A DNA stretch of 64,000 nucleotides. Source: Cristatella mucedo. Lineage: Eukaryota; Bryozoa; Phylactolaemata; Cristatellidae. This document shows, one piece after another, positions 4,488 to 64,000 of the stretch. The notes beneath the pieces were generated by a model. It saw only the letters and a list, made by a program, of their open reading frames with translations. It made no database searches and had not been told where the DNA came from. The DNA lies in NCBI GenBank assembly GCA_009760855.2, contig WPIO01000016.1, positions 6,366,001 to 6,430,000 on the forward strand, written 5' to 3'. A program made the position numbers and the translations under genes. Within the stretch, counting starts at the first letter, position 1; each line of letters opens with the position of its first letter.

Positions 4488-4608
4488 ATGTTCGGTCCTA
4501 CTCTAATCGTCTGCTTGTTGTGCGGCTGCTTGTGGCTGGCAGACTCGTTCGAAGTACCCACGCCACAGATCAGCGTTCTGAGACCTCGTGGAATACGCTT
4601 CCAGATTG
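4488..4608 (+). CDS. Receptor exon 1: signal peptide and CBM39 start
   Basis: Forty codons plus one base, ending at a strong GTGAGT donor. The N-terminus MFGPTLIVCLLCGCLWLADS has a hydrophobic core typical of a signal peptide. The following VPTPQISVLRPRGIRFQI matches the first beta-strands of CBM39 domains, which open with a Pro-rich stretch and a Gly-(hydrophobic)-x-(hydrophobic) strand. The start was chosen because it gives a signal peptide and keeps frame with exon 2. Confidence 0.8.
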
Positions 4609-5266
4609 GTGAGTATCGCCGCTTTGCCTCGGATCCTCCGCGGGTCATTGGACGTCCTGGCTAGCAGCCGCCTCTGCTGCGGCAACACCTTGAATGGATA
4701 ACTCGGGCCGAACGCTCAGCCTTAAAATGTCGAAAGTCGCGAAGCAAGTTGAGCATATGACCTTAAATGCTGACACACATGCACAACGATCGTGCACGAC
4801 CGACGAAGCCCTACATTGAAAGCGAGCTGAGTCTACCGGAAACTCGCTCCCGCCGAGCCTCAAGAGTCGGCCACTGGCGCCAAATCTGCCCAATCTCTCA
4901 CAGCCATCGTGATTAAAGAAATGAGGCCAGGCGCGTCGATCGTGCTGCAGCTTGCACCTTTTAGACTGCGCCTGTGTAGGCATCCTGGCTTGTCCAGGAT
5001 GCTCGGGACGTGCACCTGGCTTGAGTGCGAAACTGGAGCTCGAGGAACAGGAGGTAGCAAACGAAGGTCCACTTCTTCGTACGATCTCCGCATAGTAGCA
5101 TAAGCACTGGCCTGGCGTAGCGATTCCAGGTGCTTGCACGATAAAAACCGGAAACGATCGGTTCCAAGGTCGTAGAAAGTAGCGAGAAACCGCCGGAGGC
5201 TCAAGAGAGCGAGTGAGACGTGGAGAGAGCAGAAGACGTGGAGAAAATGGGAGACGGGGAGGGAGC

Positions 5267-5319
<53 letters not shown>

Positions 5320-8300
5320 AGGAGGGAGAGAGAGAAATCAGAATGAAAAAGAGAGCAAGATGGCGAAGGGAAAGAAGGCAGAGTAAGAGCATAGTTGCAG
5401 TAAGCCCTAATACCCTCCTGAAGTGGGCCGACTCGATCTTTCCTGTGTCGATCGATGTAGATAAGAGACTCGGTGATAATGAGGCACACGATAGCTCGAA
5501 AATCGCCAGTTGGTCTTTTGGAGAACGAGCCTCCAGCTTTGTTTTGTGTTTTCTAAGCTTCTAGAGACAATTCGCAGTCTACACTACCCTAGCCCCGGAT
5601 GTTCTGTTACCTCATCGCAGACGCCAGGCACACGAGCCCAGCGGGTAACTGCAGGAGGCCGTATGTTCCAAGGCCTATCAGGGTGCTGCTCAAGGGCATT
5701 TGTCTCAAAAGACCTCGAGATCTCAAAAGCTGATTTGTGGATATTTCAACGCATGTTTAAGGACGCATGTGTTCAAAAACACAATCTAAATACTGGTGTG
5801 GTACACCAAATCCAAACGCCAAATATGACGACAGCACGCAGCTAGAAAGTGTGTCAATCTATCGACACAGGTGTGGGTAGAGACTGTCGGGCAAGAAACG
5901 AGCGCTCTCGGCCAAACATCATAATACGCAGAGAGCAGAGAGCAGAGAAGCTGGCATGGAAGAGAAACGCTCACAAAGAGAGTAGAGAAGCAGGAGAAGA
6001 AGCGATGCGCTCACGAAGGGCAGAGAATGACGTTGGGTGCTCATTTGGCCTAGGGGTCAAGGTGCTCGCCTATAACGACCGACGTCAAGGTCAAGCTCAT
6101 CTTTACGACCGTCGTCGTGGGCTCGAGCCCTGTGGCTTATGTGAAGCACCTGGATAGAAATTCAGTCATTTTTACGACGCCATAAAAATGAATTATATGC
6201 TATTTATATTGCATTCTGGATGCCCGGTGAAGCCTGTTCCAACAAAAACTGAAATGAAAGCGAACGACAAATCGACAGAGGAAGACGGCGGCGCTTTCGT
6301 ATTTAGGATTCAACTGTGCTCGCTTCTTTCCTGCTTCAAAAATTCTTGTTTGGTTTTGATTTTATAATTTTATAATGTCGTGCTTCTGAGAGCGAGCGCT
6401 CGAGCTCGGCCGACGCTCGACGCGTTAGCGACGCACGACTGACTCGCGGTCCTTCCTGCTCTTATTGACTTCCGGTCTCGCCTGCACAAAGGCCAGAGCA
6501 AGGCTCGGACGCGGCAGCGGAGGAGAAGCTTCGCAGGTCACGTAGGATGCGCCGACTCCGTTCGTGCGCTCGGGCCAGTCGCACTGGCATTCTCATCGAT
6601 CGTCGCGAGACGGACTCGAAGAAGCCTGCTTCGCTTACTAACTGTCACTACAAAACTTTCCTTTCGCTGTAACCATATATTCATGTCGCCCTCTCTAGCG
6701 TACGAGTGTCGCTCAGGGCGCACTAGTCGAGCAGAGAATGAAAATATGCAGGCCGTTATCATCTTCAGTCAACCCTAGTTGTCTGCTGCTTCCGGTCAGT
6801 TCGTCAGAGTGAGGCAGAGAGCTTGGTACGGGCCACTGTGCTACGAACTGCCGCTCCTGCTACATGGAACCTGCACTTAGCGGCGAGAGTCTCGTGCCGG
6901 CTTTACAAGCTGAATGGAGTGCGTACGAATTCGCCGCGAAGAGTCCAGGCGCGAAGCTTCGGACTTTCCCCTACGAACGTTTGTGCCAAAGTTGCACTTC
7001 GCGCTCAAACCAGTTTGAGCGAGAAAGTCGCCGAGATTGTTTTCGCCACACTGGTAAAAGTCCGGAGATGCGAGCTAACAAAGGCTGTCGGAGAGTTCGT
7101 CCCCATCCGTCAACTACGTCAGCGTTCGCGGCGGGACGGCCTCAGCGAGGCCGTCCCGCGGCGGTGGCCTTCGTTTAAGACAAGGGCCTTCGAGCGAAAG
7201 ATCGCGTGTGGGAGCTCAGGCTAGTGAAAAGTCGGCGTCATAATTGAGCCAAATTAATAATAATAATAATAATAAAAATAATACCTTTGTTCTAGAGCCA
7301 TCCGAGAACTCAACCTGTTTCTAGGCACTTGAAAGCTCGGCGGAGTAAAGTGGCTTAACCTGCCGCTTACCTAGTGACGTAGCCTAGCGGCGTAGACTAG
7401 CGCCCAATGCCGTTCGGTGCGCGTCTACGCACAATAAGCAGGCCGCCACGAAACGAGCGCTTCAGGAGCTGACCTACTTATCATTACTCAAGGGGGTTGT
7501 GAGTCCGCGGCGTGAATTGGAAAGCGAGACACACACATTGGGGATCAATCGCCGGCGAACAGCGCCGCCCTCCTCCCTCGCTTTCAGAGAAATGAGTCCG
7601 GCAACTAGCGGCGACGGCGTCGAAGCGCGGAGCCTAAGATGAAGAAGAGGCGTCTAGCGAGCGTCGCCCTATCATTATATAAATAGCTGGGACAATGGGG
7701 TTGACAACCCAGCCAATATCGATCACCTCAGCGACCTCTGCGTCCCCTTGCTCATAGCTCGAGAACGATGCTCTTCAGCCACTTCTTTTGTTCCCACGGA
7801 AACCGTCCGGCAAATCTGGGATGGCTGGCGGTGACAGCGACCTTGGGCAAGCGTTGCCCTATTCTCAACGTGCAGGAGCTAAAGGTTGATACTCCAGGAA
7901 ATATCAATCACCTCATTGCCCTACTACGATGCATGCTGACCCTGTGCATGTCACCCCTAACCATATTATTCATTTCGTTTGTTTTTCAAGCATGATTTTA
8001 CTTACCATTCAATTGCATTTCACTTTACAGCAAATGTAAAGCGCCTAGAAAGAGATTAAGTTCTCTGAGGGCGCTTTATCAAGTGAATTATTATTATTAT
8101 TATCATTATGGCTGCGTCCTCTTGCTCTAGGACAGAAGTGTTTCCTGCTGAGCAATTCTCATGCGCTCTAAAATTGAGTCAGGCTGGCGCTATGCTACAG
8201 TAATGTATTTCCGTCTGTAACTCCACAAAGCCATAAAGACTATGTGGGTGTTACGCAAGAGAGTTTTGTATAGCGCACTCACAGACTGAGCGGCTTTCGG

Positions 8301-11300
8301 TACGCATTCGGTAGACAACAAACTTCGTCTCATGCAACAAAGAGAAAGGGGGAAGCATAGCATAGTCAGGAGAGCAGTTGAGGTAGTGAGTAGCATAGAA
8401 GTAGCAGCTCAGTACCGCTGAAAAGGATGAGCCATAGTCGGCAGCAGGAGAGTAGTTGTCGTTGCGTAAGAATTGTGGAAGCGAGTTCTGTAGTGTAGGA
8501 CCAGCAGAGCTAAAGCTTCTGTCGCCAACGGTCTTTAAGCGGAGGAATGGAGCAGCTAATTTATTATCCATACAGGACCCGAGGGCACGAGGAGGCTGAA
8601 ACTGGAGCAGCAGTTCAGCTAGGTACGAAGGAGCCAAGCCGTGGCGGGCCTTGTGGGTCAGCGTAAGAACTTTGGTCTGTATGCATTGATCAACCGCCAG
8701 CTATCCTAGCTCTTTTAGCACGGGTCGTGGGTTTGATAGCCGAGCTGTTGATAGGGCGAACGCAGGATGCAGGAAGGTTCTCACTGACCTGCCGAAGAAG
8801 GCCCGCCGGTAGGTATCGACTAATGGCGACACCGCACATTATGCTAAGCAGGTCCTGTTTTGTGTTAGAGGTTAATAATGGTTCCTGGGTTATGTAATCA
8901 TTAAGAGCCGAAAGCGTCATTATCCATGGTTTAGAGAGTGATGGGCGGTTGTAAGCTTTGGCCGATGCCGAGCACTCTCTAGCTGTAGAATATGCAGCTC
9001 CGCATTAGGGACGTGTACTTGTTAGCTATCAAGTTCAAGGGCGTTCTGGATAGCCGTAGTGGTTTGCTACTGTTGCCGAACCTGCGTGCATCGAGACGGC
9101 TTTCGCGGTTGGCTAGCCGTGCTTATAGAGGTCAGCTCTAGTGGAGGTCAAGGTCTAATGGAGGCCACCTGTCAAGCATCAACACGGATTGGCACTTGTT
9201 GCTTCTGCTCTGTTTACTGCAGAGGACGTGTTCAGCAGCTGCGGCAGCTTGTTCGTAACGCTAAATGCGACCGACGTCTGTTGCTGTAGGTCAAATTCCG
9301 GGCGTGAAGTTGATGGCGTACCATTACAGCGTCAACATCCCAGTGCCGGGGACGCAGGCCGGCCAACACAACTACGACGTTTCTCCTGTTGGTGAGCGTC
9401 TGCTGGCTCTGCTATCGGTAGCCGCTTCTTGGCTCCTGATATCCATCCCCTGTTCGTCTTTGACCGCTAACGCGATCGCTGCAGGTGGCAACTTCACTCA
9501 CGAGAATCGTCTCGTACCTGTGAACGACGGCGATACGGTGCACTACTGGGTGTATGCTATTTTTAATAATGGCCAGTCAGAACTCGGCTATCACTTACTC
9601 GACCAAGAGTGGACATACTCTCAGCCGCCGGCCAGTATTCCTACGCCTGCTACGCTGCTGCCACCCACTTACGGCACTCACAGACCTGTTTCATCACGTC
9701 CCACGGACGAGACCAACGCACGCCCTGGTAAGTCAAAGGGCCTTTTCAACCGTCAGGACTTGTTATTGTCGTCGTTATATTTATTAATATTCGCGCTTTT
9801 GCTCCTTGTTGCATCGTGCTATAAGAAATTGGCTGCTGCTGAACTCAGTGTCGCAGCCTCGGCTCTTACCGGTTACCCTGTAAGAAAGATCTACTCATTA
9901 AGTAGCCTCATTCAAACTAGCGAAAAGGAGTCTGGTCTGTGAACCACACTTTTATTATGCAAGGAACGCTCGGCTGCTGATGCTACATGCTTGCATGCGT
10001 GCGAATTTCGGAGCTACTAGCCAATTTTTCAATGACATTATTCGATAGACGTCACTGCAAACGGGTGTGCTGACGTAAAGAGTGCTTATTCAGCAAGCGT
10101 GTCGCAGATGCTACCGCCTTGCCGATCGAAAGTGAATACACAGCTTGCAATGAGCCAGAAGCGGATCTCTCCCAGAAACGAGGACGCGGGAGTAATTAGT
10201 CGAGCAAGACCGAGAGATGCAAGGGCTGGTTTGCAGATTATCGCTCTATCGCGTCTTTGCCAGCCCATCGAGACTTCGCGTGCGAGGCCTAGAGGTCAGT
10301 GCCATCGAGCGCATCCACTGGTGCGGCGGCGCCATCGACTGGCTCGGTGTCGATTTACTGATCGTCAGGGCAAGGAATTTAATGCAGCACGGCGTCGCTG
10401 CTCCAGTCCTTTTCGCAATGAGCCGCCTCGCACACGCAGGCATGTTCGCGAACGGCTTACTGAGAAAGCGACCGGGATGTGTGCTGCGGTAGTTTGATAT
10501 GTTGAAATCGCTCCTCTGCCAATGTAAACGAGCCGCCACAGCGAGCCCCGCATACAAGTCGAACTGCACCGGCTTTCGGCTCTTCTCTTTCGCTGACCCG
10601 CCAGTGACCTCCTGTGAGGGCGGCGATGTCTCTGGAAAGACTGCTGGGCCGGCAGAAGCTTCGGAGTGCCACATGTTTTCGAAAAGTTACAAATTCATGC
10701 TCTCGCCTTACTAGTTAGCTGGATTTACCGTGCGTGTAGTCCGAGCAACGCGGCGGCATGTCGTCAGCGTTGTTCTTGCTGGGCTACTGGGTTTAGTCTC
10801 TTTGTTGCCCTAAGGAGTCCGACGACCTCTCGTCCGACGACCTCTCGTCATCTCTCATCCTCTCGCTTGGTCGCTCTGGCTCGCGGCTAGTGTTGCTCAG
10901 AAATTGAAAAGTCACCTTCCAAACTGGCCCGAACAGCAAAACTCTTGCAATGTCTTCGATAATTGTTTGTGCGGCTGATTATAAAGTAACCTTTTACTAG
11001 ATGACCACACCAGCTCCAAGGTCAAGTATGCCTACTTTCAGTTACGCACAGTTGCAAAAAATCGGGCCTGCTCAGACAAGGACTCAGCAGTTTAGCAGGT
11101 CCAAGCGTTTGAGAATCCCATCTAAAAAAATACTAGCTGAGTTAACGGCCTCTTTTGTATAGCGACCGAAGAGCCTTTACGGCTATCACCACCGCTTTCA
11201 GCGACGCTAAAGAACCGACCACCATAGGATTCGAACCCACGCCGTTGGGACCGAGGTCGTGAAAAGCAACCGCCTTAACTAATGCGCCATCGCGGCCCAG

Positions 11301-13429
11301 ACTCTTGTTACACACTACTCCCCCCTCCCGTCTTCCGGCGCGTGCAATTAGACGCTTACGGTTTCTGCAAAACTCTGCAGCCAGGCAAGAACGCTCCGCG
11401 ATATTTTTGGTGGCTGGCAGCTGCTGCCGGCACAGGTGCAGCCATAAAGGCGAAGCTCGCTTGAGTCGCTTTGAGTCGCGTCTGGCCAGTCGCGGCGTCC
11501 TCTGAACCGCTCCTTGGCGAGACGTTCTGACGCGAGCTGATTTAAATCCGCTCAAGGGACGCACTTGCGGAGGCCGAAAGCTTGAAGAACTGTTGACAAT
11601 TTCTCTAGACTCTGCCTCTGGTGTCACCTCGACCGCTGCCGCCGATGGCGAAAATGTGTCGGCAGCTGCGCCAGCGCCTGACAGCGGTGGCCTGACGGCG
11701 ATACTACTATCGAGCATGACCGCGGTCTCCGTGGCCGCGCTTGTAGCCGTACTGGCCGTGTTCTTCGTACGGAGGTAAGCGCTTTACACCGAGGTCGATG
11801 ACCTCATGTCGATGCTCGCATTTTAAAATGCACGACAGATTCCAAGGCGACCCCCCCTTGGAGACTGGGAGCCACGTGATCGATTTTTAGCCCGAAACTT
11901 TCGCCGACGTGCTTGCGCGTTTCCAATACGCCTTTGGCTGGCTCGCGATTTCAAGCATTCTCTTTATTCCTGCGTTGGTGTCTCACGCGGAGGGGGGGAC
12001 TCGCTGCTGCTGTACGGCCATTTTGACCGTTGACCTCGACCTTTGAGCCAGAAGTCGTATCCGTCGGCTGAGAATACTCGCTGTAGCAGGTTTCTAATTA
12101 TTAATTAGCAAATAAATTAATAAATATTAAAACAATAGCTGCTCATAAATCTAGCGCTCCGAGTTTCAGTACCTGCAAGGATGAACACGTGGTAGCCGGA
12201 TTCGCAGGTTTGTGAAGCGGAGCCTAAGAAAGCTGTTTCCGTAGAATAGCTGTTGCTGCTAGTAACCACCGGTGGCTGTCATCCCGTGTGTGCTGTCTGC
12301 TGAGGAGAGATCAGCGTCGCCGAATGCGAGGGCGACAAGCGAGTTGATATCTAACCTGCGAAAGCTGGCAAAGCCAATTTGCAAGAGTCCTCTATCCACT
12401 CTAGCCAGTGGCCGACGACGCTCAGTTTAGCAGACCCGTCGGCTACAAGAGTCAGGTGTACAGCTGTACACGTGTTTTCAACACACGTGCCGCGGCTCGA
12501 AGCTTGCAGCCCGACGCTTATTACATAACTTGACTTCCTGCCTGAAATCCTCGCGCGAATTCACTGCGACTGAATTCTACGCGACTGAAGCAAGTATGCT
12601 GCCTTGACCTTGGACTCGAGCATAGCTGGTCCCTCCTTAGTCATTATTATTCTGGAGCCGCAAATACTGGCTATCTCGGCGGTCATAATCTGCCCGACGA
12701 AGCACGCCGAAGCACGCTGCAGCTGCCGAGGCCGCTCGGCGAGCTGCGATACGAGTGGGCGCTCTTCAAGCTATCGGCGGCGGCGGCGAGCCCGTCGTCG
12801 CTTTCTCGTCTTCTAGAGCGAAACGCTCGGCGAAGTCGAAGCATTCGCCGAGAGATCCGCCGAGGCCAAGGCCTTCTCTGCCCGAGCGGCCGACGGCGTT
12901 TGCGCAGCCCTGGTCAACGAGTCCGGTCTACGAGGATGGTTCGGGCTACGAGGATCCGGATAGTTTGTTCGTTTCGAGCGGCGCTCGCCGAGAGGCGGCT
13001 GACAGAGCGGCGGCTTGGCACCCATCCATTCACCCTCTACTGAAAGGGACGAGACCGAATGCTCCGACGCTGGCGCCTCACGAGTACCTAGGACTGGTGA
13101 TGTCAGGGAAGGTGGTCGACGGTGGCTACATCTCACCGATTTCGGAGGCGAGAGCGTCAGCGGAGGCGAGAGCGTCAGCGGAGGCGAGAGCGTCAGCGGC
13201 GCCCCACGAGTACCTAGGATTGGTGATGTCAGCGAAGGTAGTCGACGGTGGCTACATCTCACCGATTGCGGAGGTGAGAGAGAGCGCCGGAGGCGGCCTC
13301 GCGCGGCCCGACCCGATGCCTCTTTCCTTCGAAGCAGTGACCAACGGGCGAGCACGCGACCCGTACCCGTATTCGCACTTCTGGGCACAAGCTCCACTCC
13401 GGGGCCGTCCTATACGCTGTAACTGCTAA
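4488..13429 (+). CDS. CBM39 beta-glucan-recognition receptor, single-pass
   Basis: Predicted 414-residue type I membrane receptor. Exons: 4488-4608, 9290-9391, 9485-9727, 11609-11774 and 12817-13429. All junctions are GT-AG and phase-compatible (1,1,1,2), and the sum, 1245 nt, is a multiple of three. Order: signal peptide (about 1-20), CBM39 domain (about 22-119, with HYSVNIP, DTVHYWVYA and YHLLDQEWTY), Pro/Thr/Ser/Ala stalk (120-183), membrane span (184-209) followed by basic RRAKR, and a cytoplasmic tail (211-414). The tail carries YEDG, YEDP, two YLGL and two YISP motifs. Known family members, the insect GNBP/beta-GRP proteins, are mostly secreted and carry a GH16-like C-terminal domain; here that domain is absent. 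Inference: it binds beta-1,3-glucan outside the cell and signals, or is internalised, through tail tyrosines. The exact 3' end is uncertain (see findings). No promoter was identified. Confidence 0.75.
5271..5335. repeat. (GA)n microsatellite
   Basis: An imperfect GA tract with GGA interruptions, in receptor intron 1. Confidence 0.95.
6046..6170 (+). mobile_element. tRNA-derived SINE-2
   Basis: An A-box-like GGCCTAGGGGTCAAGGTGC is followed by a B-box-like GGGCTCGAGCCC. It matches the copy at 46837-46975 and is distinct from SINE-1. Confidence 0.6.
7131..7159. repeat. Perfect short hairpin
   Basis: A 13-bp arm, GCGGGACGGCCTC, and its exact reverse complement are separated by three bases (AGC). 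Confidence 0.9.
7250..7337 (-). mobile_element. Degenerate LINE-B 3' tail
   Basis: (TAA)n is followed by a diverged version of the minus-strand tail (GAGAACTCAA, TTTCTAGGCACTT), seen in clearer form at 31776-31860. Confidence 0.55.
7922..8107 (+). mobile_element. LINE-B 3' end
   Basis: A well-preserved 3' end containing CATGCTGACCCTGTGCATG, AAATGTAAAGCGCCTAGAAA and the stem-forming GTTCTCTGAGGGCGCTTTAT, ending in (ATT)n. It is truncated at its 5' end, as is usual for target-primed retrotransposition. Confidence 0.85.
8190..8925 (-). mobile_element. Rearranged LINE-A fragment
   Basis: The minus strand at 8251-8690 encodes the C-terminal end of the LINE-A reverse transcriptase ([20 protein letters not shown]). 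It is joined at about 8695 to sequence matching 5'-proximal ORF sequence near 27280-27395 (SENLPASCVRPINSSAIKPT). The middle of the element is missing, so this is an internally deleted or chimeric copy. Confidence 0.7.
9290..9391 (+). CDS. Receptor exon 2: CBM39 middle
   Basis: Acceptor TTGCTGTAG, donor GTGAGC, phase 1 to 1. It encodes QIPGVKLMAYHYSVNIPVP then a Gly/Gln-rich turn, corresponding to the central strands of CBM39, where a Gly-(hydrophobic)-x-(hydrophobic)-(aromatic)-His/Tyr pattern is conserved. The next intron is 93 nt, a multiple of three with no stop, so its retention would add 31 residues in frame. The domain alignment favours removal. Confidence 0.85.
9485..9727 (+). CDS. 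Receptor exon 3: CBM39 end and stalk
   Basis: Acceptor GATCGCTGCAG, donor GTAAGT, phase 1 to 1. Residues 75-119 finish CBM39 with NDGDTVHYWVYAI and LGYHLLDQEWTY. The pattern of an acidic/Gly turn before (hydrophobic)-x-Y-W and a terminal Gln-x-Trp is a family hallmark. Residues 120-155 form a Pro/Thr/Ser-rich stalk that could carry O-glycans. Confidence 0.87.
9728..11608 (+). other. Receptor intron 3
   Basis: It contains a SINE-1 copy at 11150-11298. Directly after the exon 3 donor the frame stays open to a stop at 9940-9942 and encodes a hydrophobic run (see findings). The region 9943-11149 shows nothing recognisable. Confidence 0.65.
11150..11298 (-). mobile_element. tRNA-derived SINE-1
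   Basis: The minus strand contains a B-box GGGTTCGAATCC, then the body (CGGTCGC near the end) and a terminal TATACAAAAGAGG. It lies in receptor intron 3. Confidence 0.8.
11609..11774 (+). CDS. Receptor exon 4: stalk and membrane span
   Basis: Acceptor ACAATTTCTCTAG, donor GTAAGC, phase 1 to 2. Residues 157-183 continue the Ala/Ser/Pro stalk. Residues 184-209 (starting LTAILLSSM, ending AVFFV) are an uninterrupted hydrophobic helix of about 25 residues. The basic residues that follow place the C-terminus in the cytoplasm, given the N-terminal signal peptide. Confidence 0.8.
11775..12816 (+). other. Receptor intron 4
   Basis: No mobile element or other gene was recognised. It ends in a strong polypyrimidine tract and acceptor (GCTTTCTCGTCTTCTAG). 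Confidence 0.65.
12817..13429 (+). CDS. Receptor exon 5: tyrosine-rich cytoplasmic tail
   Basis: It begins in phase 2, completing an Arg codon, after a strong acceptor. The tail opens basic and proline-rich (RDPPRPRPSLPERP, a possible SH3 ligand). Next come Y249 (YEDG) and Y255 (YEDP), then two copies of a 23-residue block at 297-319 and 339-361, each with YLGL and YISP. Three tandem EARASA hexapeptides separate the blocks. YxxL can act as a hemITAM-like or an AP-2 endocytic signal; YxxP sites suit Crk/Nck-type SH2 domains. Those roles are inferred. The frame ends at TAA 13427-13429, but a GTGAGA donor at 13274 could shorten the tail. Confidence 0.68.
13073..13267 (+). repeat. Duplicated coding block with 18-bp triplication
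   Basis: A 69-bp block at 13073-13141 recurs at 13199-13267 with only a few differences. Between them lie three 18-bp units (13145-13198) encoding EARASA. The period is 126 bp, so the duplication is in frame. Confidence 0.95.
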
Positions 13430-13611
13430 TCGTGCTTCCGTGGAAGTGATAAGCAGAAAGTGATAAGCTCGTTGTGTATTCGTTGCAGTAGCTTGAGACG
13501 CTCGAGAGAGAACGCTCGAGAGCTGCTCTGACGGTGACATCGTCGCTGGATTCGAACGATATTTTCGCATTGGCCGAAGTGCCGAAGGTACTTGCAGGCT
13601 TGCTCATCATT

Positions 13612-13634
13612 CGCCGCCGCCGCCGCCGCCGCCG
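13612..13634. repeat. (CCG)n tract
   Basis: A short CCG trinucleotide run downstream of the receptor gene. Confidence 0.9.
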
Positions 13635-13754
13635 TGCTCTGCACGATCCGAAGCAGCGGCAGCGGCTGCGCTTCGTTGCCGCTTCTGAGGTGCTGCCCCT
13701 GATGACATTGACCTTCACGAATTTCGCGGAATCCGCCCGATCGACCGAGCTGTA

Positions 13755-15410
13755 ACTCCACAAAGTCATAAAGACCACGTGGGTGTTACGCAGGAGAGTT
13801 TTGTATAGCGAACTCACAGCCTAAGCGGCTTTCGGTACGCATTCGGTAGCCAACAGACTTCGTCTCACGCAACAAAGAGAAAGTGGGAAGCATAGCAGAG
13901 TCAGGAGGGCAGTTGAGGTAGTGAGTAGCATGGAAGTAGCAGTTCAGTACCACAGAAAAGGATGATCAATAGTCGGCAGCAGGAAAGTAGCTGTCGTTGC
14001 GTAAGAATTGTGGAAGCGAGTTCCACAGTCTAGGACCTGCAGAGCTAAAGCTTCTGTCGCCAACGGTCTTTAAGCGGAGGAATGGGACAGCTAATTTATT
14101 GTCCACACAGGACCTGAGGGCACGAACAGGCTGAAACTGGTGCAGCAGTTCAGCTAGGTACAAAGGAGCCAAGCCGTGGCGGGCCTTGTGGGTCAGCGTA
14201 AGAACTTTGGTCTGTATCCTTTGCTCAACCGGCAACCATCCTAGCTCTTTCAGCAATGGAGACACGTGCTCCAACCGCTGGGACTTGAATACCAGCCTTG
14301 CAGCCATATTCACAGTCCGCTGTAGTGGCATAATAGCTTTCTTTGGTAGCCCAGCCAAAAGGGAATTACAATAATCAAGCCGAGACAGAACTAAAGAGCT
14401 ATTTAAATTTTTTACAAGCCTCTGTGGGAGACAGCTCCTAATCTTGGATAGGGATCGGATGTGATGGCTAGCTGTAGAGGCAGTCTTCTGAATGAAGCTT
14501 TTGAATTCGAGGCAGCTGTCGAACACGACACCTAAATTACGAGCACGTGGTAAAGGTCGCACAATAGCATCACCTATTAGAACAGCAAAGCCTTTTAATC
14601 CAGCCACACGTTTAGGGTGTCCTATGAGCAGCAGTTCGGTTTTATTGTCATTTAATTTCAGGAAGTTTTCCGACATCCAGGATCGAATATCGGCAAGGCA
14701 AGCATTCAATTTCTCAGTTGCTGCAGCAGATTCCGACGGTTTAAATGATAAATACAACTGGGTATCGTCAGCATAGAAGTGATATCCTATTCCATGGGCC
14801 GTAATCACTTTTCCCAGAGGTTGTGTATAAATGGAGAACAGCAAGGGACCGAGTATAGACCCTTGAGGGACTCCACAGGTGACCCTTCTCGTGTCTGAGA
14901 CCTGACCCCCACACGACACGGATTGAACTCGATCAGACTATTATGATTTAAACCATGCCAGTGCTTCGTCTGCCAGACCGATCGTTGTTCTCAATCGTTC
15001 AAGCATAACTTCGTGATCAATGGTGTCGAAGGCAGCAGACAGATCTAGCAGAGCTCGGGCAGTGACATTCCCGTCGTCGTTGCCACGTAGAATGTCATTG
15101 TTAACACGTAGGAGAGCAGTTTCAGTAGAGTGCTGCCTCTTGAACCCTGATTGAAATGTTTCTGACATTCCATTAATTTCAATATGTTCAACTAGCTGCT
15201 TAGCAACAATTTTTTCAAGAATCTTTGATAAGAACGGAAGAAGGGAAACTGGCCGATAGTTTGCAAGGACCTCTGTGTCTAATCCAGGCTTTTTAAGAGT
15301 AGGTCTAACGATTGCCGATTTGAAGGACTTGGGGACGACCCCTTTCCCCAAAGAAGCATTAAAAATCGAATGCAGAGCTCGCTGCTGCACAAACTCGTCC
15401 AACAGCCCGT
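13755..15410 (-). mobile_element. LINE-A, 5'-truncated, dead
   Basis: CR1/L2-type non-LTR retrotransposon. The minus strand encodes most of a reverse transcriptase in order: [56 protein letters not shown], the catalytic YADD box at about 14767-14790, and a C-terminal thumb region. Two consecutive stops (14938-14943) break the frame where the copy at about 23560 has Tyr-Leu. The endonuclease and 5' part are missing. A 3' UTR precedes position 13755 on the minus strand. Confidence 0.88.
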
Positions 15411-15814
15411 CCGAGCAATGGGTCTGACGCATCGACCCGTGCAGGCGGTCGGTCGTTGAGCGCATTCGCGCGAGCGTCTTCCTGATCCTTCTGGGAAATT
15501 CTCGACGTTTTTCGGTGCCTAGTCTGTACTCAGAGGGCGCCGAGGCTCGAGAATTATATCCGATTTCAAGAGATCTCACAGCTCCAGCTCCAGCCACTTC
15601 GCTCGCTTCCCTTCGAATGCTGCTCGCGCCTTGTGCTCTGCTGGCGGGAATGTCGTCGAAGGCTTCGTGTGTCGTTTACGAAGCGAACATGCACCGGATG
15701 GACTCCGATTTAGTCCATGCGAATATAAATAATTCACCGGACAGATTTTTTGTATCTCTTGTGAAGCGGAGCGCATGTCTTACGGCGTCACTTCTGATAG
15801 TGTTAACGCTAAAC

Positions 15815-22339: not shown

Positions 22340-24876
22340 TCTCCATCTGTAACTCCACAAAGTCATAAAGACCATGTGGGTGTTACGCAGGAGAGTTTTT
22401 TATAATACACTCACAGCCTAAGCGGCTTTCGGTACGCATTCGGTAGCCAACAGACTTCGTCTCACGCAACAAAGAGAAAGTGGGAAGCATAGCACAGTTA
22501 GGAGAGCAGTTGAGGTAGTGAGTAGCATAGAAGTAGCAGTTCAGGACCGCTGAAAAAGATGTGCCATAGTCGGCAGCAGGAAAGTAGTTGTCGTTGCGTA
22601 AGAATTGTGGAAGCGAGTTCTGTAGTGTAGGACCAGCAGAGCTAAAGCTTCTGTCGCCAACGGTCTTTAAGCGGAGGAATGGAGCAGCTAATTTATTATC
22701 CATACAGGACCTGAGGGCACGAGGAGGCTGAAACTGGTGCAGCAGTTCAGCTAGGTACGAAGGAGCCAAGCCGTGGCGGGCCTTGTGGGTCAGCGTAAGA
22801 ACTTTGCTCTGTATCCGTTGCTCAACCGGCATCCATCTTAGCTCTTTTAGCAAAGGAGACACGTGATCAAACCTTTGGGACTCGAAGACTAGCCTTGCAG
22901 CCATACTCATAGTCAGCTGCAGTGGCCTAGTGTGCAGTGGCCTATAGTGGCCTATAGCTTTCTTTGGTAGCCCAGCCAAAAGGGAATTACAATAATCAAG
23001 GTGAGACAGAACTAAGGAGCTAGTTAAATTTTTTACAAGCAACTGTGAGAGACAGCTCCTGATCTTGGATAGGGATCGGATGTGATGGCTAGCTGCAGAA
23101 GCATTCTTCTGAATGAAGCTTTTAAAATTGAGGCAGCTGTCGAAAACGACACCTAAATTTTGAGCACGTGGTGATGCTCGCACAACAGCATCACCTATTA
23201 GAAGAGCCAAGCCTTTTAATCCAGCCACACGCTTAGGGTGTCCTATGAGTAGCAGTTCGGTTTTATCATCATTTAATTTCAGGAAGTTTTCCGACATCCA
23301 GGATCGAATGTCGGCAAGGCAAGTATTCAGCTTCTCAGCTCAGCTGCAGCAGATTCCGACGGTTTGAATGACAAATGCAACTGAGTATCACCAGCATAAA
23401 AGTGATATCCCATTCCTTGGGCCGTAATCACTTTGACCAGAGGTTGTGTATAAATGGAGAACAGCAAGGGACCGAGTACAGAGCGTTGAGGGGCTCCACA
23501 GGTGACCCTTCTCGTGTCTGAGACCTGACCCACACACGACACGGATTGAACCCGGTCAGACAAGTACGATTTAAACCACGCCAGTGCTTCGTCTGCCAGA
23601 CCGATCGTTGTTCAATCAGAACATCGTGATCAATGGTGTTGTAGGCAGCAGACAGATCTAGCAGAGCTCGGGCAGTGACATTCCCGTCGTCGCTGCCACG
23701 TAGAATGTCATTGTTTACACGGAGGAGAGCAGTTTCAATGGAGTACTGCCTCTTGAACCCTGATTGAAATGTTTCTTGACAAATTTATTATTTTCAATAT
23801 GCTCAACTAGCTGCTTAGCAAAAATTTTTCAAGAGTTTTTGACAAGAAAGGAAGAAGGGAAACTGGGCGATAGTTTACAAGAACCTCTGTATCTAATCCA
23901 GGTTTTTAAGTATGGGTCGAAGGATTGCCTATTTGAAGGACTTGGGGATGACCCCTTTTTCATGAGAAGCATTAAAAATAAAACCTTGGTTATTGCAGGA
24001 CTAAGTTGGTCTGCCAGTGAAGACCACAGAGATGAAGGTATAGGGTCTTCAGGAGACGAGCTCTTTTTGCTAGACCTTATTAAGGTAGCCACATCGCATG
24101 TAGAAACCTCCGAGAACCTTTTAAGGAAAGTCACAGGTTGCGGAACCGCGATTGCTTAAGTCGGAGGGGTTTAATGGAGGCACGAATGTGCACAATTTTT
24201 TCAGTAAAGAAGGCTGACAACTTTTCAGCTGAGCCCTTAATATCTGGGGAGTCAGACCTGACAGCATTGGCCAGTAAATGGTTTACTGTCTTATAAATCT
24301 GTTTAGGGTCCGACTTGCAGGAATTCAGCTTTCGGATGAAAAAAGAAGCCCTGGTTTTTATAAGCTTTCGGGTGTAAATTCAAAGGAAGTCTTTGAAATT
24401 GACTAGATCTGCATCAGACCCCGATTTATTGAAACGCTGTTCAAGCCTGCGCTTAACCGGCGCATCTTGAGGAGTTTTTTTGTAAATTGAAAGGAATCTC
24501 CCCGACTTTGAACACTATAAATATAATGAACGGGATAAAATGATAAAATGAACGGGAGCGTGCTTATCAAGAGCACTCCTGAGTGTCATGTTCATCGCAT
24601 CAGTGAGGTTATCGAGGCTGCCGGTCGAGTTTGAATGCAGATCAAGAAAACCTGCGTCACAAACAGATTTCAAAAACTTGTCTATGTCAATGCTTTGTAA
24701 GTTACGTCGTTTGACAAGTTCGACGTTACTCTGTACGTACAAGGGAGCAGGAACAGTAAACGAGACCGAACAATGATCTGAGAGGGTCAGTGGGCACACC
24801 ACAAGGTCAGTGGGGAGGACAACCTTAGTGATCACGAGATCTAAAATGTGGCCACCGACGTGGATGGTATGATTGA
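22340..24876 (-). mobile_element. LINE-A, longer copy, dead
   Basis: The minus strand carries, from 5' to 3': the end of the endonuclease region (24515-24835, with LTLSDHCSVSFTVPAPLY), a degraded linker, a reverse transcriptase with VPQ-like and YADD-region sequence (23327-23563, where YADD reads YAGD), and a long C-terminal frame (22383-23297). A duplicated AGCTC at about 23336 and a CAGTGGCCTA stutter at about 22925 disturb the sequence. The YAGD change removes a catalytic aspartate. Confidence 0.87.
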
Positions 24877-24877
24877 T

Positions 24878-27405
24878 GATAATAATAATAATAATGCACT
24901 TGATAAAACGCCCTCAGAGAACCTAATCTCTCTCTAGGCGCTTTAAATTTGCTGCAAAGGGAAATGCAATTGAATGGCGAGTAATATCATGCTTGATAAA
25001 CAAACAAAATGAAATGTGTGCTTGCTGATTAAACAGCCTCTTTTTGTATAGCGACAGAAGAGCCTTTACGGCTATCACCACCGCTAGCAGTGGCGATAAA
25101 GAATCGCCCACCGCAGGAATCGAACCCACGACCTCGGGAGCGAGGTCATGAAAGCAACCACCTTACCTAGTGTGACATCACGGCTGGTTAGGGGTGACAT
25201 GCACAGGGTCAGCATGCAAATGTGGTTAGAGGCAGCATGCACAGTGTCAGCCGCGTAAGTACATGAAGGACGAATCACAGGGACCTACTAAATGCTGTCC
25301 TAAATAGGTCTGTTTTTAAGTTCTTTTTAAATGTGGTCAAGTCAGGGGATGTTCTGACGCAAGTCGGGAGCGAGTTCCAGGCTTTGGGAGCATACGAATT
25401 AAATGCACGGTGTCCAGAGGATTTGAAGTTTGTAAGAGATATTTATAGACTGTTTGATTCCGAAAAGCGGGTGGTACGATGCTTGGCCTGATGGGGGAGT
25501 ATATCTGAGAGATAGGCTGGAGCCATAGAATAAAGTGACCTAAAAGTGAGTGACAAAACTTTGAAGTGAATCCGATGCTTGACTGGTAGCCAGTGCAGGT
25601 CGGCCAGAAGTGGTGTAATGTGGCAACTGCGACGCTCACGACAGACAAGCCTAGCTGCGGAGCTTTGCACCAGCCTCAATCGCCTGATCGCACATGTTGG
25701 TAGGACAGTAAGCAGTGAGTTGCAGAAGTCGAGACGGGATGTCACGAATGCATGGACCAACTTGGACGTGGTATCCTTATCTAAACAAGCCCGAATTTTA
25801 GCAATGCTATGAAGCTGAAAATAGGCAGATTTGACTGTGGAGCTGATATGGTCGTCTAACGAGAGGTCGCTTGGGAATATGACACCAAGATTCCGAGCTG
25901 ATTCGACAGGAGATATGCTGGCAGAGGCAATTTTGAGCGTCAGCCTTTCCAATTTGTGAATTACACTGGGTTTGCCCATAACTAGTAAGTTGGTTTTATC
26001 ATCGTTTAGTTTTAGAAAATTCGCTGCCATCCATGTGCGGATGTCATCAATATACGCAGCAAGGGAGATGAGAGAATTCGAGGTGCTCGAAGGCTGGGAG
26101 GGATCAAAGCAAAGGTACAACTGAGTGTCATCCGCATAGAAGTGAAAGCCTAGATTGTGCATGGCAATCACATCAGCAAGAGGGAGAGTATAAACCGTGA
26201 AAAGAACCGGACCTAGCACTGAGCCCTGAGGTAAGCCATATTTCAGAGGTACCTCAGATGATTTTTGTCCATTCACGTCAATACTCTGGAGTCTCCCACT
26301 GAGATAGGACCTGAACCACTGCTCTCAGTGATGCCCTGGCGAGATGAGAGGCGCTCTAGAAGAACTCTGTGATCGATGGTATCAAAAGCTGCCGAAATAT
26401 TGAGCAAACCAAGCAGAGACACTCTACCCATGTCTGAATTCCTAAGTAGGTCGTTGTATACCCTAAGCAATGCTGACTCTGTGGAGTGATTAGCTCGGAA
26501 GCCAGACTGGAACTTACTAGCAAGGTGTGAGGTTTCAATATATGAGTTCAGCTGGTTTCCCAACGACCCGTTTAACGTGTCGGACCAAACCAAAATTCTC
26601 TAGACGGTCAAGAAATGAGCGGACCTGGCTGGTTTGTTAGGTTTGTCAACGTGAATATTGAAGTCTCCTACAATCAGTAACAGCCTGTCACACACAAACA
26701 TTTTAGCGAGGAACTCTGAAAATTCCTCTATAAACAAATTTAGACAGCCAGAAGAAGGCCGGTATATCACAACAGTGAGAGACATTGTCTTTGATGAGGA
26801 CCTGATTGTAACCGTGTCAAACGATGGCCCATACGAGAAACTGCACATTTTATAGCCAAACGATTCGCGAACAACAATTGCAACCCCGCCACCAACCTTG
26901 TCAGGACGCATGGACTGATAGAATGAGAACCCGGGTGGGGTGGTCTCAGAAATACATCTACTTGAACAAGGCGTAATCCAAGTTTCGGTTAGCAGAAATG
27001 CATCTAGCTTCTTCTGGACCACCTGATCACGGATAAGTAACCCCTTGGATTTTAGCGAGCGGACATGTAGTAGGCGGAATTTAAGAGGCTGTCCAACAAC
27101 TGGGCAACGGCGATGAAGTGGCTTGTATTCACGTCGGCGTGTATCCGGCCTGGCGAACGCGGGCTCTTCGAATTTGAATTGGACCTTAGTAACGGCCGCC
27201 GGTCGACGTTTCACGACGTGCTGGGCTACGGCGGGTGGGCTACCGCCGCAACAAGTACTATTCAGTGCTTTAAGCTTACGAGTCGTAGGCTTGATAGCCG
27301 AGCTGTTGATAGGGTGAACGCAGGATGCAGGAAGGTTCTCACTGACCCGTTCGAAGAAGGCCCGCCGGTAGGTATCGACTAATGGCGACATCGCACCTCA
27401 TGAGT
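24878..27405 (-). mobile_element. LINE-B with endonuclease, internally deleted
   Basis: This is the copy with the most complete 5' end. The minus strand at 26600-27391 encodes an endonuclease/exonuclease/phosphatase-fold domain (FRLLHVRSLKSKG, LLTETWITP, GGGVAIVVRES, LLIVGDFNIHVD). It ends abruptly at about 26597 and is followed directly by reverse transcriptase (FQSGFRANHSTESALL, YGLPQGSVLGPVLF, YADD at 26101-26160). The section between endonuclease and reverse transcriptase is therefore deleted. A SINE-1 is inserted in the 3' UTR. Confidence 0.88.
25036..25190 (-). mobile_element. SINE-1 inserted in LINE-B 3' UTR
   Basis: The minus strand has GCCGTGATG, B-box GGGTTCGATTCC, the body, and TATACAAAAAGAGGC. 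It separates two parts of the LINE-B tail that are contiguous elsewhere (compare 1-106), so it inserted after that LINE. Confidence 0.88.
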
Positions 27406-39793: not shown

Positions 39794-41326
39794 GTAGGCA
39801 CCGCCGCGCTGCGACGGACGCCTCCGCCCAGCTCAGGCGCGCGCCACGTCGCCGAATGGTACAGGCCTCTCGCAATGTGGCTAACGGCTTCTACGTTTAA
39901 GCCGAAGAATTTGTGCAGCAGTGGTACAGCGAGGTCAAGGACTACGATTTCTCATCGTCGAGTCAGACACTGAAGACTGGTAAGACATTCTGCACCTGAC
40001 ACTAAATGCTTTAACACATTACGCTTCCCTAAGTATTCCAGGTTTACTTTTTTTAATAGGATCGCGAAAATACAGTGCTACGTTAATTTGCTAAATCGCT
40101 TTTCCGCTTTTTATTCAATCAATACATTTAGGAATCAAGAGCTTTTCTTCAGCAATTTCCTTAAATGCAGCTAAAACTCCGATGCGTAGTAGCACCTAGA
40201 CACAGCTGCGCACTCGCGACATAATTTTGCTGAAGCTTCAGCCGGAAACGCAGCGAGGACTGTGAGGACTCGATAAGCACGCGTCCCCTCCCCCGTAAAT
40301 CGTGGTAAAACAGTCGCGAACGCGGCTGAGTTTTACGCAAGAAATCCCGAACGACCTCCATAATTCCCGATAGAAAGGGGACGGCCATTCTCGATAGCTG
40401 CTTCATCGTTTTTCCTTTGAAGTTCCGTGAAGCTTATTGGTCTCACAGAATAGTCGCAGTAGGCCGCCGAGATTACTTCAATTTAAGTGAGAACGAGAAA
40501 AAACGCACGCCGACTTAGGTAGAACTTAGGTCTTGGCGCAGCGGCGCGGCGCGGTGGCGCTCGCCCTCGCGCTCGATGACCCGAGGGTAGCCGGTTCGAG
40601 TTCCGCAGCGGGCACTTTCTGTATTGCTGCGCGCCGCCTGCAGCCGAGCGGGCGCGCAGAGGCTCTCCTTCCGCTTAATGAATGAGGCTTACGGATCAGC
40701 CGCCGACACGCGTGCTCGGATGTTGCTTCGCGGATTCTACTAAGCCGAGAATTTGGGCGAGGTGCGAGCGTTCTAGCGGAGACCCGCTAGAATGCGCTTT
40801 TCGGCAGTAGTGCTCAGGTTGAACCCCCGATAGGTCGATCCGCGAGAGCGGAGCGATATGCTTTGAATAGTGCGCTCCGCGCTCCGTCAAATTTCAATGC
40901 TTCGCAGGATAAGAGACGATTGCTCCGCCCGCGACTCCGAGTCTCGTAGGCGTTTCTTCGAATTTCTTCTCTTTAGGTCACTTTAGTCAGGTGGTCTGGA
41001 AGAGCAGCGCAGAGCTCGGCGTCGGCATGGCCAAGAAAGATGGCCGCTGGATCGTCGTCGCCAACTACAAGCCAGCTGGCAACTTTGTCGGTCACTACAA
41101 AGACAACGTCTTTCCCGCTTCTTCAAAGCCTGCAGGAGCAGCGCACAAGGACGGAAGCAGCAGCGACAGCGACAGTGACGACAATCGAGGCGCCAAAGGT
41201 CAGCGTCATCTGATCGCCTTTGTCAGCTTGCGCTTTCACCCCGAACCTCGCTCGACAGACGCCAAGCTAACCGCGGCGCTCGCACGGATCTCCGCACGCG
41301 CGCTCACCCTCGTCGACGCGGGCTGA
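39562..41326 (+). CDS. GAPR-1-like CAP-domain protein 1
   Basis: CAP superfamily protein of the Golgi-associated GAPR-1/GLIPR2 type, which has no signal peptide and associates with membranes through lipid and self-interaction. Exons: 39562-39793, 39902-39979 and 40977 to 41198 or 41326. The start MGKGDFAKECLKAHNGYR mirrors the short Met-Gly-Lys start of known GAPR-1 proteins. The CAP cavity tetrad is intact: H51, E63 (in LGENVA), E88 (in WYSEV) and H105 (in GHFSQVVW). After the domain (about 4-150) comes an acidic Ser/Asp-rich extension. It ends either at the stop at 41326 (219 residues) or by splicing at a GT at 41199. An acceptor ATGCAG just upstream of the ATG leaves room for a further 5' exon. 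Confidence 0.85.
39902..39979 (+). CDS. GAPR-1-like 1, exon 2
   Basis: Exactly 78 nt, phase 1 to 1, the same size and phase as the matching exon of gene 2 (52100-52177). It encodes EEFVQQWYSEVKDYDF with the third tetrad residue (Glu), then a Ser-rich loop. Confidence 0.87.
40530..40640 (+). mobile_element. Possible tRNA-derived SINE
   Basis: GGCGCAGCGGCGCGGCGCGG resembles an A-box region, and CCGGTTCGAGTTCCGCAGCGG is a B-box region. It lies in intron 2 of gene 1. No functional tRNA fold was confirmed. Confidence 0.45.
40813..40917 (+). repeat. 105-bp dispersed repeat, copy 1
   Basis: Contains ATAGGTCGATCCGCGAGAGCG and GTGCGCTCCGCGCTCCGTC. It recurs at 43850-43955 in the same orientation with scattered differences. 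This copy ends about 60 nt before exon 3 of gene 1. Confidence 0.88.
40977..41326 (+). CDS. GAPR-1-like 1, exon 3
   Basis: Strong acceptor TTCTTCTCTTTAG. It encodes GHFSQVVWKSSAELGVGMA and WIVVANYKPAGN, the last strands of the CAP fold, then PASSKPAGAAHKDG and SSSDSDSDD. The frame stays open to a stop at 41324-41326. A GT at 41199 would end the exon at 41198 in phase 1, which fits the acceptor at 46099 of gene 2. Confidence 0.75.
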
Positions 41327-48472: not shown

Positions 48473-51400
48473 AAGCTGCCGCGAGCCAGAGACCGACAGC
48501 TTCCGCTGCCCATTCAGTCGTCGTGCATTCTTTCATTGATGCTGCATCGATGCCGAGGCCAAGGGAGCCCACTGAGCGAGCCAGCTAACTAGTTATGGGC
48601 AAACCCAAAGGCGATGCAAGCATATCGAGTGCTGAATCTGCACGAAATCTAGCTGTCCTGTTCCAAAGTGACCTTTCATTAGACGACCACATCAGCTCCA
48701 CAGGCAAGTCTGCATACTTTCAGCTACACGACATTGTCATAGTTCGGGTTTACTTGACCTGTGATACTTACATCTAAATGGGTCCATGCAGTCGTGACAT
48801 TCTGTCTCGAATTCTGTAACTCACTGCTTGCTGGTCTACCGGCTTGCACAGTCAGGCGCTTGCAATTGGTGCAAAACTCTGCTGCTAGGCTTGTATGTCG
48901 TGAGCGTCGCAGTTGCCACATCTCACCACTTCTCGACGACCTGCACGGATTCCCAGCCAAGCAACGCATCAAATTCATAGTTCTGTCACTCACGTTTAGG
49001 TCCCTCCATTATTTAGCTCCAGCATATCTATCAGATCTACTCCCCCACCCCATCGTACCACCCTCTTTTCTTAATATAGCTGTTTAGCGACTCATCTTAA
49101 CAACTTCAAATCCTTTGGAGACCGTGCCTTTAGTTCGTATACTCCCAAAGCCGGAAACTCACTCCCGACTTGCGCCACGATATATCCTGACTTAACCACA
49201 TTAAAAAAGAAACTAAAAACGCACGTACTTATGACAGCATTTAGTGGTTCCCTGTGATTCGTCCTTTATTTCCTTATGCGTGCTGACATTGTGCATGCTG
49301 CCGATAACTACACTTGCATACTGACCCATACTAACCATGTTATTCCTGTTGTTTATTAAGCATGCTAATACAATCATGCTTCAATCATGCCATTCAATCA
49401 TGCTTCCTTTGCAGCAAATGTAAAGTACCTAGAAAGAGATTGAGTTTTCTGATGGCGCTATATCGTCGTATCATTATTATTTATATCGCCAGCAAATCAG
49501 CTGCTCAGAGTCTTCAAGCAATCTTAAAAACATGCTATACAACAAACTTTATTTTCTATAATCATGGACATATTTAGTAAAAATACCCAACCGAAATCGG
49601 AAACTGTGCTGTTGCACTTCTTTACAAGCAGAGCTGATCTCGCATTTTCAATTTAATTAAACACTGATCCGTGAAGTACTGGCAGGGTTATGGAACTTAC
49701 GGTGCACGGAGCTACACTCAAAATGAAGCTGCGTACAAGTCACAAGCTTGCATCTCAACAAGCTGCACACATGTAGTGTGACCTACAAAGGTTCCACAAG
49801 TTGGAAAACTAGTCGCAAATCACGCAGAGATCAGTAAAATTATTATTTGTTGATATGCTGCTCGCGGTTTAAATCCAGCTTAGACTTGGTTTGCTCTATT
49901 AACATATTTCTTTTACGTGAAAACTGTCAGAACTTCTCTAACGCGTTTATCTTTTGAAAGGTACCATAAGCAAAAATTCCAATTTCATAAGGTATTTTTC
50001 AAAATTCCGCCTTTAAGAGCGAAATGTCAAGAGTTTATCTGTCCAATTTACGCAATGTGCTCAAGTGTTCTTGAATAATTGAATGGTAAAGTACTCTGTA
50101 GCGTCGTGGCGGGTTGCGGTACTGCTACGGCGAGCCTTCTTTTGCATAACAAGTAAAGTGCTTAATAGAGATTGAGTTCTCCTAGGGCGCTGAAGAGATG
50201 AATTATTGTCACTATTGTGATAAACCAATCGGGTGTACGAGGCTCAATCTAATAACGCTGGTATACCGTAGGCGCACGTTTCTAGAGTGCATTTACTCAA
50301 TCACCACGTCGTTCCGTTTGTGCGTTCTTTCGAGAGTCTTCTTTGTAGCAACACTTTCTCCGCCGAATCCCAGCTGCGCAGCGGCGAAGCTGGGATTCGG
50401 CGTTCCACCGTCTCGACAGCACTCGAGAAACTCACGGTCGACGCGTGCTCGAAAACAGCACCGCTTAATCTGCAGCCGTCGTTTGTTCGAGCTTTGGGCC
50501 GCAGTCCATCGTTCGGTGGATGGAATGTGTCAGAGCAACAAAGCACGTTTCTGTCCAGCGCAGTGACTCATCGGCGCCGGACTCCGGCGAGACTCCGGCG
50601 AGGGATGCGGCGCCGACGCCTGGGAGCTACGCTTGCACTTCGTGACTCGACGGCTCTGCCGCTTGACTTAGCGTCCCTGCGCCGCTGCGACGTCCGGCGA
50701 GGGATCTGGCGCCGACGCCTGGGAACTACGCTTGCACTTCGTGACTCGACGGCTCTGCCGCTTGACTTAGCGTCCCTGCGCCGCTGCGACTTCCGGCGAG
50801 GGATCTGGCGCCGACGCTTGGGAGCTACGCTTGCACTTCGTGACTCGACGGCTCTGCCGCTTGACTTAGCGTCCCTGCGCCGCTGCGACTTAGAGCCGCC
50901 GGCCTACTTCTCCTTGTAGTCTCGATTGGCCGACATGAAGCTGAGCGCCGCAGGTACCCGGCCGGACAGCGCCGGCAAGGCAGCAGCAGCGGCCGGGCAG
51001 AAGGCCCAAACGCCGCAGCAGTTCGCCGACGGCGCTCTGCTCGCGCACAACGCTTACAGGTAGCTTCCGCCGCCGAGCCGTGGTCGCAGCCGTCGCCGCC
51101 TTCCGAGCGGCTGCCGCCTGTTCGGCGGGTACGGGTGGGGAAGGGGTGAAGGGGCGACCCTAGGCGGCGGTGCTAGGAGCGGCGCTTTTCGGCGACGGAG
51201 ACACGGAGGCCACGGAGCGCTCTTTCGCTGCGCGGGCTGGTGGTGCGTCTCCGCTCGGTCGGTCGGTCGGTCGTCCGACGGCGCCTGCGGCCGCGCGCCT
51301 TTTAGGAAGAAGCACGGCGCTGCGCCGCTCGCCTTGGCCAAGGACCTGTCGGAGTACGCTCAGAAGTGGGCCGAGCACCTGGCCAAGATGGGAACCCTGC

Positions 51401-61827: not shown

Positions 61828-63710
<1,883 letters not shown>

Positions 63711-64000
63711 GTGCGTTGGCTCGCTCGCGCTCACGAAGCGCTCGGCTCGCGCTCACGCGAACTTTCCCGGCGTCAAGCAGCGGCGGTGGCGCCGCGCTGC
63801 GCCTCGAAGTCGTCGCCGGATCGGGCGGCCGCTTGCTGCGGCAGCAGCAGCGTCTCGCGACAGTATCCGGTCGGCAGGAAGTCACCGCTGTGACCTTTGA
63901 GCTGGCTGCTGCTGCTGCTGCTCGGCGACGCTTCGCGTGCGGCGCGACCTGCAGCAGCTGCGGCGCGTCAGAGAGAGACGGCGACGGCGACGGGCCGCTC

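Follow-up and report, generated by a model that had tools for sequence, protein, structure and literature searches.

The stretch of the Cristatella mucedo genome analysed here (the window; 64,000 nucleotides of contig WPIO01000016.1) carries, on its forward strand, a gene in which exons for a CBM39 domain are followed by exons for a predicted transmembrane (TM) span and a tyrosine-bearing tail, and our analysis confirms this predicted combination as a real feature of the locus. Its product may belong to an undescribed class of animal cell-surface β-glucan receptor, in which a CBM39 exon module would have moved onto a TM exon and a tail with YxxP motifs of the CRK-binding type, a proposal to which we give slightly less than an even chance.

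Gene structure and domain composition

The models of this gene and of its paralog on contig C36 were read from genomic DNA alone. In the window, five exons of 121, 102, 243, 166 and 613 nt, all bounded by GT-AG introns in phases 1,1,1,2, join into a frame of 414 codons and a stop codon that contains no internal stop, which bears out the phase-matched chain of 414 residues described in an earlier note on this DNA. The features of the gene are as follows.

4488..4608, forward strand: exon 1, encoding the signal peptide and the first part of CBM39, phase 1 donor (paralog exon 1 aligns)
9290..9391, forward strand: exon 2, CBM39, 102 nt, phase 1-1 (joined frame, paralog alignment)
9485..9727, forward strand: exon 3, last part of CBM39 (to about 9624), then Pro/Thr/Ser-rich stalk, phase 1-1 (frame, Pfam)
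11609..11774, forward strand: exon 4, end of the stalk and predicted TM span, 166 nt, entered in phase 1 and left in phase 2 (frame, paralog, TM-exon scan)
11692..11769, forward strand: predicted TM span, residues about 184-209 (hydropathy)
12817..13429, forward strand: exon 5, basic stop-transfer and predicted cytoplasmic tail, including the stop codon (frame, paralog alignment)
12947..12961, forward strand: YEDPD, a YxxP motif kept in the paralog (paralog alignment, shuffle test)
13073..13150, forward strand: tail repeat unit 1, HEYLGL (YxxL) and GGYISP (YxxP) (sequence comparison)
13199..13276, forward strand: tail repeat unit 2, HEYLGL and GGYISP, differing from unit 1 in 6 codons (sequence comparison)

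The encoded protein consists of a signal peptide, the CBM39 domain, a Pro/Thr/Ser-rich stalk, a single predicted membrane span and a tail of 203 residues. The Pfam check of the joined protein places CBM39 (PF15886) at residues 23-121 with E 4.9e-19 and a score of 68.5 bits (cut-off 25). It is the only Pfam family above cut-off, the remaining matches being CBM_56 (E 0.075) and Cadherin_C_2 (E 0.26), and no C-type lectin-like domain was found above cut-off. Among solved structures, the N-domains of GNBP3 (3ie4, E 2.3e-11) and β-GRP (2kha, E 1.2e-10) come closest. In insect CBM39 domains, Trp76/77 is reported to touch the glucan (PMC6272582); by our mapping its equivalent is W96, and a Trp is kept at this position in all 12 of the aligned CBM39 sequences.

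The hydropathy maximum for a 19-residue segment falls on residues 191-209 (mean 2.47) and is directly followed by RRAKRSAKSK. Because the signal peptide is N-terminal and the basic residues would lie on the cytosolic side, we infer a type I single-pass protein. The acceptor of exon 5 is uncertain, 8 of the 13 candidates listed preserving the tail frame (12964 and 12979 lose YEDPD); alignment with the paralog speaks for 12817.

A paralog with the same exon chain

The gene on C36 encodes a protein of 329 residues from exons of 124, 102, 231, 166 and 367 nt, with the same phases and with exons 2 and 4 identical in length to those of the window gene. It also repeats the exon number, the predicted span, the basic stop-transfer and the tail motifs, the acceptor of its exon 5 having been picked by us to suit the tail frame. 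Its CBM39 domain scores 63.4 bits in Pfam, and BLASTP aligns the two proteins over a stretch that starts at the signal peptide and reaches the tail, with 130 of 285 residues identical (46%, E 9e-66). Since two diverged genes share this chain, an accidental joining of exons is unlikely, and the layout announced in the earlier note, namely CBM39, stalk, single span and a tail with YxxL and YxxP motifs, is upheld by Pfam, hydropathy and the paralog together.

Tyrosine motifs of the tail

The tail of the window protein contains eight tyrosines, among them the YxxL sites Y301 and Y343 and the YxxP sites Y255, Y315 and Y357; the C36 tail contains three tyrosines and two YxxP motifs, both of which align in context with motifs of the window protein (two genes, one genome). 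The conserved contexts are YEDPD and GGY[IF][ST]P. Both scores together were reached in 3 of 5000 shuffles, and the better one alone in 15 of 5000. The score of the whole-tail local alignment was reached by 1 of 2000 shuffles; that alignment pairs other stretches and leaves YEDPD unaligned. The HEYLGL site reads HEFCPL in C36.

Of the differences between the two 78-nt repeat units, 3 of 6 are synonymous when read in the proposed frame; the two alternative frames give 1 of 5 and 1 of 6, a small point that favours the proposed tail frame. The units are separated by almost three copies of an 18-nt repeat. Because the tail exon carries both the duplicated units and these short repeats, the number of tail tyrosines may vary among individuals.

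CBM39 genes across the genome

Searches of the whole assembly (572 Mb, 688 contigs) with the CBM39 family and with both receptor proteins revealed at least 12 CBM39 genes: one in the window (C77), one on C36, two each on C676 and C507, and six on C222. A weak match on C118 (E 0.5) and the weak matches that the C36 protein gave on further contigs were left out of this count. Three architectures occur, in which CBM39 is accompanied by GH16, by G8/CEMIP, or by a predicted membrane span and tail.

The C222 cluster occupies 3.61-3.69 Mb, and three of its six CBM39 genes are followed by GH16 exons with the EIDxxE pattern. No GH16 match was found before the next gene at the copies at 3675492 and 3671253, the former of which has an in-frame TAA; the copy at 3614522 lies mostly outside the stretch examined. 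At three C222 genes exon 3 extends into the start of GH16 and has a phase-0 donor candidate, whereas in both receptors it has a phase-1 donor and ends within the stalk. Donor phase nevertheless does not separate the genes cleanly, since a phase-1 donor candidate lies shortly after CBM39 in each of the two C507 GH16 genes as well.

The two C676 genes (about 1.35-1.42 Mb) carry CBM39 exons and a Pro/Thr-rich stalk, then exons conserved between both, of which typed pieces match G8 in one gene (E 5.8e-26) and the CEMIP β-helix in the other (E 3.9e-25). Considered at first as possible further TM receptors, they turned out to continue from CBM39 into G8 and CEMIP; they apparently place a glucan-binding module on a hyaluronidase-type protein. 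In a tree of the 12 CBM39 sequences, some of them partial, the two receptors group together (0.931) and then with the C676 pair (0.834), which makes these genes their closest CBM39 relatives. CBM39 thus seems to be a module that moved between partner domains.

A phase-constrained scan for TM exons covered up to 25 kb downstream of the CBM39 exons (at C36 7.7 kb, at the C676 genes 24.9 and 16.5 kb, at one C507 gene 14.7 kb). For the window gene it returned two candidates, which are alternative acceptors of one exon, and for C36 one, all of them the modelled exons; the four other CBM39 genes on C676 and C507 gave 0, 0, 0 and 1, the lone candidate being a Cys/Val repeat and not a matching TM exon. 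A relaxed scan does not discriminate, because the other genes give counts similar to those of the receptors (1, 1, 1 and 4 against 4 in the window and 1 at C36), with unconvincing candidates throughout.

The joining of CBM39 exons to GH16, which the earlier note had set against its own reading, was examined at the DNA level, and no GH16 exon was found nearby: probes derived from the exons of a C507 gene had no match at a threshold of E 0.01 in 74 kb (the window and 10 kb upstream), nor in 10 kb at C36. The same probes match exons at both C507 genes and three sets at C222, with the EIDxxE pattern in five of five. Since they match elsewhere and not at the window or C36, a mis-joined GNBP is unsupported at the DNA level. 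A whole-genome search with PF00722 gave 0 matches, a misleading result because the GH16 exons are split and are indeed found by the C507-derived probes; the typed GH16 pieces of C507 score 20.1 bits, below the Pfam cut-off of 22, yet match solved laminarinases with E 4.9e-19.

Other features of the window and the genome

Three forward-strand frames of the window resemble CAP (cysteine-rich secretory protein) domains and possibly form a tandem array.

40913-41323, forward strand: CAP-like frame, failing Pfam (17.3 against 21.1 bits)
51064-51489, forward strand: CAP-like frame, typed piece passing Pfam
63308-64000, forward strand: CAP-like frame, typed piece passing Pfam

Reverse-transcriptase-like frames lie on the reverse strand, the first passing Pfam RVT_1 and the others being judged by eye from their translations.

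13969-14937, reverse strand: reverse-transcriptase-like frame
14944-15675, reverse strand: reverse-transcriptase-like frame
8254-8700, reverse strand: reverse-transcriptase-like fragment, within intron 1 (4.7 kb) of the CBM39 gene
22386-23339, reverse strand: reverse-transcriptase-like frame
25446-26324, reverse strand: reverse-transcriptase-like frame

Elsewhere in the assembly, C688 is a mitochondrial contig of 21 kb (20 kb examined). Reading frames are repeated in its region of about 11.6-15 kb, its COX1 is open throughout under translation table 5, and its gene order has a block in common with that of the chiton Katharina, which makes a lophotrochozoan likely; C166 holds a partial, diverged COX1 copy that resembles a nuclear insertion.

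Discussion

The model we propose starts from the observed domain, predicted span, tail, same-layout paralog and conserved YxxP motifs, and describes a type I CBM39 receptor that would couple β-1,3-glucan binding to YxxP phosphorylation, CRK-type adaptors and a cytoskeletal response. The ectodomain would most likely bind β-1,3-glucan from microbes such as fungi or algae. Insect CBM39 domains are described as binding structured β-1,3-glucan and self-associating on it (PMC7915573), and a membrane-tethered CBM39 would cluster on the glucan polymer, thereby bringing the tails together for kinases. A kinase of the SRC or ABL family would phosphorylate the YxxP tyrosines, and the phosphorylated motifs would recruit CRK-type SH2 adaptors, so that the cell would respond through its cytoskeleton, for instance by adhesion or engulfment. 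Phospho-YxxP is given as a target of the CRK SH2 domain, in a recognition older than animals (PMC5043372), and the transmembrane receptors DCBLD1/2 are reported to bind CRKL via YxxP (PMC6029619); it is the conserved YxxP motifs that point to CRK-type adaptors and hence to the cytoskeleton. We consider this chain, in which expression and topology as well as the ligand, the phosphorylation, the adaptor and the response of the cell are inferred, an evenly balanced proposition.

Several observations weigh against it. The YxxP motifs are few and stand within Pro-rich tails, and the shared YEDPD is not significant by itself, 743 of 5000 shuffles sharing a 5-mer. The remaining positions of the GNBP3 aromatic triad are H94 and Y98 in the window protein and H and N in C36. 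Searched against the whole genome, the C36 protein recovers the window TM exon at E 0.05 only and does not recover the window tail exon, and the matches listed for the window protein include neither the TM exon nor the tail exon of C36. AATAAA is absent from 13430-15000, the closest variant being CATAAA at 13767.

The main rival to a signalling receptor is a plain role in capture, adhesion or endocytosis, in which a membrane-anchored glucan-binding protein would act without phosphotyrosine signalling. YxxΦ motifs are a class of endocytic sorting signal, and the YLGL that occurs twice in the window tail would serve as such; both tails are largely rich in Ala, Pro and Arg, and the other CBM39 genes carry GH16 or G8/CEMIP, apparently degradative partners. 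The replacement of the YLGL site by HEFCPL in the paralog, whereas the YxxP contexts are conserved, makes us regard this rival as rather unlikely. The same replacement bears on a Dectin-1-like receptor signalling through SYK by a hemITAM, to which the glucan-binding-type ectodomain and the two YxxL sites of the tail would lend themselves. A hemITAM tyrosine is preceded by an acidic run, and no such run is seen in APHEYLGL. The orientation is probably type I, whereas that of Dectin-1 (CLEC7A) is given as type II (PMC8882614); we hold SYK signalling to be improbable. From the Dectin-1-like receptor put forward in the earlier note we thus retain CBM39 on a predicted single-pass protein with a tyrosine tail and no GH16 exon found nearby, whereas the hemITAM comparison is not supported. 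The missing AATAAA near the stop and the long first intron with its reverse-transcriptase-like fragment would fit a wrong gene model, with exons 4-5 from another gene, or a decayed locus; the identical exon chain on C36, the joined frame free of internal stops and the unmatched GH16 probes make this very improbable.

In comparison with known systems, the window protein shares its signal peptide and N-terminal CBM39 with the GNBP/β-GRP proteins (Drosophila GNBP3, Bombyx and Plodia β-GRP). The latter are mostly soluble and secreted and usually end in a GH16-like domain, in place of which the window gene, where none was found, encodes the predicted span at 184-209, the basic residues after it and the tail. 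For Drosophila GNBP1 a GPI-anchored form is reported to exist, so membrane attachment of a GNBP-type protein is as such not new; a span with a cytoplasmic tail on a CBM39 protein would be. The window protein resembles Dectin-1 only broadly, by its predicted place in the membrane, an ectodomain of the glucan-binding type and tyrosines in the tail; the ectodomain of Dectin-1 is unrelated to CBM39, and the window protein differs by its long tail with YxxP and its two, unconserved YxxL sites. The scaffolding receptors DCBLD1/DCBLD2 are, like the window protein, predicted or known transmembrane proteins with intracellular YxxP motifs (PMC6029619), on a discoidin/CUB/LCCL ectodomain instead of CBM39.

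The invertebrate β-GRP/GNBP3 proteins are presented in reviews as soluble hemolymph proteins acting via extracellular cascades (PMC7915573, PMC6272582), and the titles and abstract openings examined in the CBM39 literature do not describe a membrane CBM39 receptor, which is weak evidence of absence. An animal with such a receptor and its conserved tyrosine tail would be able to relay contact with glucan straight into the cell. If the proposal is true, fungal and algal glucans would be sensed at the cell membrane independently of vertebrate Dectin-1, through signalling of the engulfment type and not of the SYK type, and the bryozoan protein would provide a testable, independent counterpart to Dectin-1.

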